From contig NZ_CP024845.1 in assembly GCF_002788215.1 (NCBI RefSeq), positions 2,852,001 through 2,916,000 on the forward strand: a DNA stretch of 64,000 bases, read 5' to 3'. The position numbers were made by a program, and so were the translations under genes. The notes beneath the pieces were generated by a model. It made no database searches and was not told the origin of the DNA. It saw only the letters and a program-made list of their open reading frames with translations. Origin of the DNA: Halohasta litchfieldiae (GTDB lineage: Archaea; Halobacteriota; Halobacteria; Halobacteriales; Haloferacaceae). This document shows, piece by piece, positions 23,704-64,000 of the stretch (its first letter is position 1; each line of letters begins with the position of its first letter).

Positions 23704-25473
23704 TTAGTCGCTCTCTGTGAGTCGGTAGATACGGGCTTCCCACGGTCGCAGATCGAACGCCCACGCGTCGACATCGGTCGCCCGCTCGTCGGCTCCATAG
23801 TTACAGAGCAGGAGTTCGGCCTCCATCTCGTGGGGATCGAAGTCGACTTGCTCCTCGGGAATCCAGGTGTGGCCCTCCCACTCGGCAAAGTTGAGCGTGA
23901 CAAGCAGTCGCTCGTCGCCCAGCGTTCGGATGTAGGACCAGATCTCCTCGTGGTCGTTGATCAGCACGTCGTAATGGCCATACACCAGTACGTCGTGTTC
24001 TTTGCGGAGTTCGATCAACTCTCGGTAGTAGTTCCAGATCGAGTCGGGGTCGTCGCGGGCCTCGGCGACGTTGATCTCGGTATAGTTGGGGTTGACACCG
24101 ATCCATGGCTCGCCGTCAGTGAAGCCGGCGTTGTCCTCGGTCGACCACTGCATCGGGGTTCGGGCGTTGTCCCGGCTGTTCTGCCGGAGGGCGTGTTTGA
24201 CATCGTCGAAGTTCTCGATCTCGCCGCTGTCGAGGGCGTTCCGAACGGGGTTGATCGTCTCGACATCTCGGAACTCATCGAGCGAGTCGAAGGGGTAGTT
24301 CGTCATCCCGATTTCGGCACCTTGGAAGATGTAGGGCGTTCCGCGGAGCGTGAAGATGAGCGTCGCCAGCAGTTTGGCCGACTCCTTTCGGTACTCGCCG
24401 TCGTTGCCGAACCGCGAAACGAGTCGCGGCTGGTCGTGGTTGCTGAGATAGATGCTGTTCCACCCCTGCTGGTCGAGGCCGTACTGCCAGCGGTTGAGTA
24501 CGTCCCGGAGATCATTGAGATCCCAGTCGTTTCGCTCCCAGATTGCCCCGCCATGATCCAAGAGAACGTGATCGAAGTGGAACAGCGTCGACAGTGGCCC
24601 CTCGGCCTCGACGTAGTCTTTGGCGATCTCCATATCCATCCGCCCCATCATCTCGCCGAGGGCGAACACATCGCGGCCTTTGAGCACGCGGTCGTACATC
24701 TCATCGAGGAACTCCTGCATTCGAGGGCCGTCGAACGTTTCCCACATGTTGGTCGTATTCAGCGGCGGGTCGTGTTGGGTGACCGAATCGGGTTTTGACA
24801 GGAGGTTGATAACGTCCATCCGGAAGCCATCGATTCCTTTGTCGAGCCACCACTCCATCATCTCGAAGATCTCGTCCCGAACATCCGGATTCTCCCAGTT
24901 CAGATCCGGCTGTTTCTCATCGAAGAGGTGGAGATACCATTTGCCTACTTCGTCGTCGTAGGCCCACGCAGGCCCGCCGAAAAACGATTCCCACTCGTTC
25001 GGTGGGGCTTCGTCAGGCGGCCCGGCGTGGCCAGTAAAGCCCTCGATGTCGGTGCGGCCGTGTTTCCAGATGTAGTAGTCGTGGTACTCGCTTTCGGTGT
25101 CCCGAGAGTTGACGAACCACTCGTGTTCGTCGGAGGTGTGGTTGACCACGAGATCCATGATGAGTTTGATGTCGCGGTCATGCAAGCCCTCAAGGAGATT
25201 CTCCCAGTCTTCCATCGTCCCGAACTCGTCCATGATCGACTGGTAGTCGGCGATGTCGTAGCCGTTGTCCGCGTTGGGCGATTCGTACACTGGGTTGAGC
25301 CAGATGATGTCGACGCCCAGATCGTCGAGATAATCCAACTTCTCGATGATTCCGGGGATGTCACCGACACCGTCGCCGTTGGTGTCGTTGAAACTACGGG
25401 GGTAGATCTGGTAGATAACTGATTCCTTCCACCACTCCCGTTGGATGAACTCGTCACGCGGCGTGTCTGTCAT
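23704..25473 (-). CDS. GH13 alpha-glucosidase / oligo-1,6-glucosidase family
   Basis: This 589-residue glycoside hydrolase belongs to family 13. Family regions are visible: DLVVNHTSDEHEWF (107-120), DGFRMDVINLL with nucleophile Asp220, ALGEMMG with acid/base Glu274, and YLSNHDQPR with Asp347. The N-terminus EWWKESVIYQIYPRSF is typical of oligo-1,6-glucosidase and sucrose/maltose hydrolases. It acts in the cytoplasm, as no signal peptide is visible, on small alpha-glucosides. The exact linkage is not determined. The neighbour on the left is a small membrane protein, not a sugar transporter. Confidence 0.9.
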   Translation of the reverse strand: MTDTPRDEFIQREWWKESVIYQIYPRSFNDTNGDGVGDIPGIIEKLDYLDDLGVDIIWLNPVYESPNADNGYDIADYQSIMDEFGTMEDWENLLEGLHDRDIKLIMDLVVNHTSDEHEWFVNSRDTESEYHDYYIWKHGRTDIEGFTGHAGPPDEAPPNEWESFFGGPAWAYDDEVGKWYLHLFDEKQPDLNWENPDVRDEIFEMMEWWLDKGIDGFRMDVINLLSKPDSVTQHDPPLNTTNMWETFDGPRMQEFLDEMYDRVLKGRDVFALGEMMGRMDMEIAKDYVEAEGPLSTLFHFDHVLLDHGGAIWERNDWDLNDLRDVLNRWQYGLDQQGWNSIYLSNHDQPRLVSRFGNDGEYRKESAKLLATLIFTLRGTPYIFQGAEIGMTNYPFDSLDEFRDVETINPVRNALDSGEIENFDDVKHALRQNSRDNARTPMQWSTEDNAGFTDGEPWIGVNPNYTEINVAEARDDPDSIWNYYRELIELRKEHDVLVYGHYDVLINDHEEIWSYIRTLGDERLLVTLNFAEWEGHTWIPEEQVDFDPHEMEAELLLCNYGADERATDVDAWAFDLRPWEARIYRLTESD

Positions 25474-25549
25474 ACTATCTCCTGTTTTGGGGAGTGGCTT
25501 AATATGTCTGACTTGGTCCTGAAGACAGTACTGGACTCGATAGGTGCCT

Positions 25550-25617
25550 TTTAGTAGTCGACGCCTAATCCTTCATTTATGGATTTAGTAGTCGACGCCT
25601 AATCCTTCATTTATGGA
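25550..25617 (+). repeat. perfect 34-bp tandem duplication over a start codon
   Basis: Bases 25550-25583 and 25584-25617 are identical over all 34 bp and directly adjacent. Each copy holds TAGTAGTCGACGCCTAATCC and ends with an ATG. The second ATG is the start of the 48-residue protein. The first ATG would read only MDLVVDA before a stop (25579-25602). The lack of any difference between copies suggests a recent slippage event or selection for two copies. Confidence 0.95.
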
Positions 25618-25759
25618 CGATCACGCACACGAGGCAGACCCTGACGCACGGATCACCTCACCGATGCAGGAGTTCACGACCGAACAGGCGATGACCGGCG
25701 GTGCGGTGCTGCTGGTCGGTCTCCTAATTGCATTCGGGCTGCCACTACTCTTGCTCTAA
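25613..25759 (+). CDS. 48-residue single-helix membrane protein (DUF7550-like)
   Basis: The start ATG lies in the second copy of the 34-bp repeat. The product reads MDDHAHEADPDARITSPMQE, then a polar segment, and then one membrane helix GAVLLVGLLIAFGLPLLLL at the C-terminus. Small tail-anchored proteins with this His/Asp/Ala-rich N-terminus are common in haloarchaea; I recall the group as DUF7550. Function is unknown. It converges with the ABC transporter gene, which ends only 7 bp away. Confidence 0.7.
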   Translation: MDDHAHEADPDARITSPMQEFTTEQAMTGGAVLLVGLLIAFGLPLLLL

Positions 25760-25766
25760 ACTGGTT

Positions 25767-26978
25767 TTATAACGAGTCGGTGAACGAGCAGAAATCACCG
25801 TCACCGCCGACCGAACAGACCGTTCCGTTATCTTCACGCGGATACCACGCCAGCGGGTGATCCGCAACGAGGTCGACCGTCACGCGCTCGCCGAGTTCGA
25901 AGTCCTCGACGTGGTTGTGTTGGCAGTGGACTGTATCGCCGCTATCGAGGTCGACGCGATAAATAAACGAGGGACCGACGTACTGCCGTGAGGTCACTTC
26001 ACCGTCGGTCTGGTCGGGATGGGCGCGGGCAGCCCGGAGGTCGTCGGGCCGAACGAGGACGTCGACGGCGATTCCCTCGTACTCCTCGGTGTAGCCATCG
26101 AGCGTCGCAGCATCGAACGATCCAAGGCCGGTTTTCAACGTGCCGTCGTGGACGTAGGAGGTCAGGAAGCTCGCCCGGCCAAGGAAGGAGGCGACAAAGC
26201 GGGATTTCGGCTGTTCGAAGATACGCTCTGGTCTATCGAGCTGTTCGATCTGGCCGTCGTTCATCACCGCAACGCGGTCCGAAATCGAGAGTGCTTCCTC
26301 TTGATCGTGAGTGACAGAAATGGCGGTGACGCCCGCCTCTTTGAGGATCGACCGCACTTCCTCGCGCATCTCGACGCGGAGTCGGACATCCAGATTCGAA
26401 AACGGTTCGTCCAACAAGAGAACGTCGGGTTCGGGGGCCAACGAGCGTGCGAGGGCAACGCGCTGTTTTTGTCCACCCGACAGTTGGCCGGGCGATTTCT
26501 CGTCATGGCTGGGCATATCCACGAGATCAAGTAGTTCGTCGACGCGAGCCTCGGTCTCGGCGTCGTCCATCTCGGTGAGCCCGAAGGCGATGTTTTCTCT
26601 AACCGAGAGATGCGGGAACAGCGCGAAGTCCTGAAACACGATGCCGACATCGCGGGCTTCGGGCGCGGTGACGCTGTCGACGGTCGCTACCATCTCCTCG
26701 TCGAGTTCGATGCTTCCATCGGTGGGGGTTTCGAGCCCGGCGATCATGCGGAGCGTCGTCGTCTTCCCACAGCCCGATGGCCCGAGCAGCGTCAGCAGTT
26801 CGCCGCGTTCGACCGACAGCGAGATCTCTTGGACGGCGGTTTCACTACCGAAAGCCTTGGTGACGCCGTCGAGCTTCAAAATGGGATCGTCGACGGTCTC
26901 GTCGGTGTCGACTGGCCGTTCTGGTGTTGGTGTCGACTGCTGTTCGGTCGCGTCGATGAGTGTGTTAGTGTTCGACAT
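25767..26978 (-). CDS. ABC transporter ATP-binding protein (Fe3+/polyamine-like, FbpC/PotA type)
   Basis: This 403-residue ATPase has Walker A GPSGCGKT at residues 66-73, the signature LSGGQ at 166-170, Walker B LLLDEP soon after, and a TOBE-like C-terminal domain. An acidic N-terminal extension of about 30 residues precedes the ATPase core. The group includes iron(III), sulfate, thiamine and polyamine importers, so the substrate cannot be named. No permease or solute-binding protein is encoded next to it, so its membrane partners must be elsewhere. Confidence 0.85.
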   Translation of the reverse strand: MSNTNTLIDATEQQSTPTPERPVDTDETVDDPILKLDGVTKAFGSETAVQEISLSVERGELLTLLGPSGCGKTTTLRMIAGLETPTDGSIELDEEMVATVDSVTAPEARDVGIVFQDFALFPHLSVRENIAFGLTEMDDAETEARVDELLDLVDMPSHDEKSPGQLSGGQKQRVALARSLAPEPDVLLLDEPFSNLDVRLRVEMREEVRSILKEAGVTAISVTHDQEEALSISDRVAVMNDGQIEQLDRPERIFEQPKSRFVASFLGRASFLTSYVHDGTLKTGLGSFDAATLDGYTEEYEGIAVDVLVRPDDLRAARAHPDQTDGEVTSRQYVGPSFIYRVDLDSGDTVHCQHNHVEDFELGERVTVDLVADHPLAWYPREDNGTVCSVGGDGDFCSFTDSL

Positions 26979-62939: not shown

Positions 62940-64000
62940 TCACCGATCAACGTCGACCGCAGTTTCTGCCCGCCGCATGATCTCGCTGATCGGTCGACCT
63001 GTTTCACTGGCGACGGCGGCGGCATCGTCGTACTCCGCGCTCACGTCGTAGACCTCGCCGTCGGTCGTGCTCGCTATTTTTACGTCGACCGTGTACTGTT
63101 CGCCAGCAACGGTGAGGTCGACGGTCTCGAACCGTCGTTCTGCGGTCCAGCGGTGGCCCGCACCGTGTTCGCGGATGCCGAGCGTCCCGGTTTCGAGCGC
63201 CAGTCGGTGGGCGATGCGCTCGGCGTCTTCGGGCTTGCAGATCACCTTCACGAGGTGGCCCGGTCGAGATTTCTTCATCGTCACGGGAAGAATCGATACA
63301 TCGCGTGCGCCCGCGGCGGTCAGTGTTTCCTGCAAGCCGCCCAGTAGTTCCGGCGAGGCATCGTCGAGATTCGTTTCCAAGACCGTGATCGAATCGCGGC
63401 TCAGTCGACTCCTACCGTCGCCGACGGTCGCCCGGAGGACGTTGGGATGGGACTCAAAGGAGTGGTCACCGGCTCCATAGCCGGTTTCGTCGACCGAGAG
63501 CGCGGGGAGAGTGTCGACGCCCTCGGCGAGTTGGGCGAGAATCGCCGCGCCGGTCGGCGTGAGGAGTTCGGCCTCGATGGGACCGCCCTGAATCGACCAG
63601 TCGGCACGCTCGGCGATTTCGACCACCGCAGGACCGGGAATCGGGTAGGTGCCGTGACTCATTTCGCGGTGGCCGCCACCGACCGACAGCGGCGTGGTGA
63701 CGATCCGGTCGACGTCCAGATCGTCGACGAGCAGTGCCACACCGACGATATCGGCGATGGCGTCGTCCGCGCCGACCTCGTGGAACTGGATGTCGTCGAG
63801 CGGCTCGCCGTGAACCGCGGCTTCGGCCTCGCCGAGCAGGCGAAACGCACCGAGCGCGTCGGCTTTGACCGATTCGGGGAGGTCCATGGAATCGACGATG
63901 TCGACGACCTCACGATAGCTTCGGTGGGGGCCGTGGCCTTCGGCGTGAGTGTGGTCGTGATCATGGCTGTGGCCGTGATCATGGTTGTGGCCGTGATCAT
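62940..64000 (-). CDS. larC: nickel insertion protein LarC, partial (runs off right edge)
   Basis: This open frame of 353 codons runs off the right edge, so its start is not visible. LarC inserts nickel into the pincer cofactor of lactate racemase. Recognisable regions are DIQFHEVGADDAIADIVGVA and SHGTYPIPGPAVVEI, then ELLTPTGAAILAQLAEGVD. Near the edge a His-rich stretch (63930-64000, with HNHDHGHSHDHDHTHAEGHG) carries about eleven His and is probably a nickel-binding internal linker. It contains an 18-bp repeat (63963-63980 and 63981-63998) with one mismatch. No other lar genes are in the window. Confidence 0.9.
   Translation of the reverse strand, partial: DHGHNHDHGHSHDHDHTHAEGHGPHRSYREVVDIVDSMDLPESVKADALGAFRLLGEAEAAVHGEPLDDIQFHEVGADDAIADIVGVALLVDDLDVDRIVTTPLSVGGGHREMSHGTYPIPGPAVVEIAERADWSIQGGPIEAELLTPTGAAILAQLAEGVDTLPALSVDETGYGAGDHSFESHPNVLRATVGDGRSRLSRDSITVLETNLDDASPELLGGLQETLTAAGARDVSILPVTMKKSRPGHLVKVICKPEDAERIAHRLALETGTLGIREHGAGHRWTAERRFETVDLTVAGEQYTVDVKIASTTDGEVYDVSAEYDDAAAVASETGRPISEIMRRAETAVDVDR

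Follow-up and report, generated by a model that had tools for sequence, protein, structure and literature searches.

A recent 34-bp tandem duplication in Halohasta litchfieldiae likely doubled the core promoter and start codon of a probably leaderless DUF7550 gene

In this study, we analysed a 64,000-nucleotide stretch of the Halohasta litchfieldiae genome (hereafter the window) and examined a tandem duplication at 25550-25617, which we read, with good but not full confidence, as a recent 34-bp event that doubled the core promoter of a leaderless DUF7550 gene together with its start codon; the unequal copies would now form two overlapping promoters.

The duplication itself, first reported in the initial annotation, is confirmed in the sequence: the two copies are identical at 34/34 positions and lie head-to-tail, ATGGA makes up the terminal bases of both, and the start codon lies inside the unit. 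The description of the two reading frames also held, as the first ATG (25579) opens a frame of only seven codons followed by a stop (ATG GAT TTA GTA GTC GAC GCC TAA) and the second ATG (25613) is the start of a 48-aa ORF. The repeat register ends exactly after 68 bp on both sides (T at 25549 vs A at 25583; C at 25618 vs T at 25584), and this sharp end of the periodicity makes the breakpoints unambiguous and the junction one without microhomology. Specifically, the 5' limit of the unit falls inside a TATA-like box and the 3' limit in codon 2 of the DUF7550 gene (Table 1). No other match to the unit was found at three or fewer mismatches in the whole genome of 3,332,022 bases. Tandem Repeats Finder returned five arrays in the window, among which this one had the top score and was the sole array with 100% matches. 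Additionally, a script run over 384 kb of the same genome (16 stretches of 20 kb besides the window) detected eight perfect tandem duplications whose unit was 10 bp or longer, the longest being the one at this locus. On these two results, a chance origin of the repeat is excluded.

Table 1. Features at and around the duplicated locus, in window coordinates.
Feature	Coordinates	Strand	Basis or remark
Alpha-amylase-family enzyme, divergent neighbour	23704..25473	-	phosphotrehalase-like by NCBIfam score
Distal promoter: upstream (BRE-position) element AGGTG, then TATA-like box TTTTAGTA (25549-25556)	25542..25556	+	
Distal copy of the unit, from the TATA-like box to ATGGA	25550..25583	+	sequence, Tandem Repeats Finder
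Seven-codon ORF (MDLVVDA, then TAA)	25579..25602	+	sequence; translation predicted
Proximal copy of the 34-bp unit	25584..25617	+	box 30 nt 5' of the true ATG, upstream element absent
Gene for the 48-aa small membrane protein DUF7550 (PF24418)	25613..25759	+	profile match E 1.7e-20
ABC transporter ATPase with TOBE_2 domain, convergent neighbour	25767..26978	-	

The 48-aa ORF matched the PF24418 profile at 72.9 bits vs a cutoff of 27, and a search of NCBIfam gave no match for it. The protein has an acidic N-terminus with histidines and a single hydrophobic segment at the C-terminus. DUF7550 matches were present in 52 of the 60 genomes searched, and our literature search for DUF7550 found no paper. 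The DNA of the neighbourhood could be aligned in two congeners, L005 (∼78% identity) and L007 (∼83%), and in a third, L006, the alignment was limited to 97 bases inside the DUF7550 gene.

Comparison with relatives covered loci from 30 of the 52 matching genomes, the window's own and 29 relatives, with one genome per species. The duplication was present in none of the 29, three congeners included, and none of them had, from -150 to +60 relative to the start, an exact direct repeat of more than 14 bp; the 14-bp case, L004, lay within a His-Asp coding repeat. L007 carries a single promoter copy, and its alignment to the window shows a gap of 34-35 bases at the locus. The single copy in the 29 relatives, together with the single-copy promoter of L007, indicates that the duplication is derived and recent. 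The recent origin that had been proposed from the absence of any mismatch is thus supported by the zero mismatches, by the 0/29 relatives with a duplication and by the near-identical single-copy promoter of L007, where "recent", with one genome per species, may mean any time after the sister species diverged. The 0 differences over 34 sites correspond to a divergence between the copies of at most 8.4% (95% upper bound), and the third-position distance between the window and L007 is 0.43. If the copies evolved freely, the duplication would be younger than roughly one fifth of the L007 split, a bound that would loosen under selection on the box or under exchange between the copies. Furthermore, two TTTAGTA boxes flanking an ATG were found in 2 of 170 family genomes (this locus and L052), which indicates that the arrangement is rare in exactly the TTTAGTA form, the search being blind to promoter duplications with other boxes. 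L052 was considered as a second TATA-ATG-TATA case and read as chance, its match being loose and its intervening bases without a repeat.

Perfect identity of the copies and their absence from every relative inspected would also be seen if the genome were truly single-copy and the second unit had been introduced by assembly or sequencing. We regard such an artefact as very unlikely: an array of 68 bp should be shorter than ordinary reads, the assembly consists of one contig of 3,332,022 bases and is 99% complete, and assembly errors at short repeat units are more commonly collapses than gains.

In Haloferax volcanii, leaderless transcripts make up 72% of coding transcripts, and the leaderless promoter consists of a BRE followed by a TATA box, with the start site at the ATG, according to PMC4983044. 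The locus studied here resembles that promoter in that its TTTTAGTA box occupies positions -30 to -23 relative to the ATG and the ATG stands at the expected transcription start. It differs from the promoter described there in having two boxes, 34 bp apart, and an upstream element that is GGTG-like, where the proposed one is CGAAA. In both copies the TATA-like box is at -30 from its own ATG, the proximal box being ATTTAGTA at 25583-25590, and RGRTGNNTTTTWGTA has a single match in the whole genome, namely the distal promoter. A similar layout was observed among the 29 relatives, whose start codons were taken as the nearest in-frame upstream ATG and not from annotation: 25 of them had TTTW at -31..-24 relative to that ATG, and the most informative upstream positions were a T-rich box at -29..-26 and a T at -1. 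The DUF7550 gene is probably leaderless, and as the unit spans the TATA box to the start codon of such a gene, the promoter would have been copied, not the start codon alone. A scan for bacterial sigma-70 promoters and terminators found nothing, a result of no relevance to archaea.

In addition, 31 of the 32 bases at 25537-25568 are the same in the window as in L007, its closest relative inspected, compared with 45/62 just upstream, 67% at third codon positions of the two flanking genes and 110/144 within the DUF7550 gene, so the promoter is the best-conserved stretch among those compared. Such strong conservation, together with the palindrome GTCGAC within the unit, might point to a tandem operator, that is, a repeat that doubles the binding site of a regulator and is unrelated to the start sites. 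However, the conserved stretch is explained by a TATA box and an upstream element at the expected spacing, and across the 29 relatives conservation is highest at the T-rich box and the T at -1, not at the palindrome; we therefore consider a tandem operator extremely unlikely. An upstream element before the TATA-like box, GATAGGTGC (25537-25568), is common to many DUF7550 promoters. A regulon sharing this element was considered and rejected, as the pattern is present once in the genome, which suggests a gene-specific promoter element.

The two copies of the promoter are unequal, because the duplication took the box along and left the sequence upstream of the box behind: GATAGGTGCC precedes the distal box and TTTATGGA the proximal one. 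A pattern devised post hoc, RGRWS near the box, was present in 19 of the 29 relatives and in the distal copy and absent from the proximal copy, vs a mean of 3.7 and a maximum of 11 in 1000 shuffles; it was missing in 10 of the 29, among them the congeners L005 and L006. A matrix made from the 29 relatives scored the distal copy at 17.3 vs 0.3 for the proximal one, ranks of 3rd and 16th among the 1323 ATGs of the window. A second matrix, for which 31 of 107 regions upstream of the organism's own genes were used, gave 7.9 vs 5.8, and these were the two best start positions within 25481-25660. Since the upstream element was kept by the distal copy alone, the best-scoring promoter is now aimed at the first ATG; since both ATGs top the own-genome matrix locally, both copies look usable. 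On these scores the distal copy looks better than the proximal one, how much better varying with the model used (a gap of about 2 bits with the own-genome matrix), and distal dominance is uncertain.

With two overlapping promoters, the following events would be expected. First, the distal, complete promoter would fire at the first ATG, the start of the seven-codon uORF, which is located where the leaderless transcript of that promoter is expected to begin; this transcript would have a 34-nt leader holding the uORF, a 10-nt gap between the uORF stop and the true ATG (25603-25612), and then DUF7550. Second, DUF7550 would be made from the distal mRNA via internal initiation or via termination-reinitiation over the 10 nt. 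Third, the proximal TATA box would still yield a share of leaderless mRNA as before the duplication. According to PMC3986360, Hfx. volcanii can initiate at a second AUG that follows a 5'-terminal one on the same transcript, even more efficiently than at the leaderless AUG, and 5'-end scanning is reported there to be excluded; for flaA1-flaA2 of the same species, PMC6728339 describes translation as strictly coupled across a 10-nt intergenic gap. Downstream-AUG use and 10-nt coupling in Hfx. volcanii imply that the uORF need not silence DUF7550. The likeness to flaA1-flaA2 as described there lies in the 10 nt from the upstream stop to the downstream ATG, and the difference in the upstream frame, which here is a predicted ORF of just seven codons. 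A structured leader was also considered and found unsupported, as folding of the two predicted RNA 5' ends gave no structure beyond that of shuffles (z 0.66 and 1.42).

It is only a tentative proposal, and on balance a doubtful one, that a single mutational step turned a leaderless gene into a two-promoter gene with a 5'-terminal uORF coupled over 10 nt while leaderless mRNA was still made. If the two-promoter reading is true, the locus would show how a leaderless message can, in nature and in one step, become leadered and gain a uORF, with the single-copy relative as the state before, and would be a natural case of leadered messages and uORFs arising from leaderless ones in archaea. It would also make it simple to test how the ribosomes of haloarchaea deal with a 5'-terminal short ORF and a second start.

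An altered expression of DUF7550 through the duplication, as the initial annotation had suggested, is plausible. The net outcome is probably a modest and near-neutral shift in expression, of a sign not predictable from sequence, and probably not a selected switch. An adaptive duplication, in which a tandem promoter or a uORF was selected to raise, lower or condition DUF7550 production (for example, as a uORF-coupled switch), would fit breakpoints that exactly flank the TATA box and start codon and an in-frame uORF stop 10 nt 5' of the true ATG, a coupling distance known in Haloferax. We nevertheless consider it improbable, for the arrangement is not conserved in relatives, the uORF comes automatically with the unit, and a comparable 29-bp event in the same genome affects a TnpB-like gene by frameshift. 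The latter, a perfect tandem duplication with one extra base of periodicity, was found in the 320 kb sampled outside the window (L036:9541-9599; G000:C1 509541-509599); the open frames change frame across the repeat, and the downstream frame matches a TnpB/Cas12f1-like TNB domain. This frameshift indicates that short perfect duplications without evident benefit occur elsewhere in the genome.

As a mutation, the locus is a further instance of ordinary microduplication, a type already known. It shares with the short tandem duplications of prokaryotes the head-to-tail order, the perfect match, the short unit and the absence in relatives, and is unlike the typical case in that its unit is a nearly complete core promoter plus a start codon. 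Literature searches for promoter duplication in haloarchaea, or for tandem duplication of leaderless archaeal promoters, found none, and a search for tandem duplication of a promoter region in Haloferax returned plant or algal matches only. Should the two-promoter reading fail, the duplication would still be useful as a strain marker and would illustrate routine microduplication. Two other repeats were noted in this genome. A perfect 24-bp repeat at L035:13037-13088 is in-frame and coding, rich in His/Asp codons and part of a 515-aa open frame, and an 18-bp tandem repeat of 2.8 copies with 93% matches occupies 63950-64000 and runs past the end of the window.
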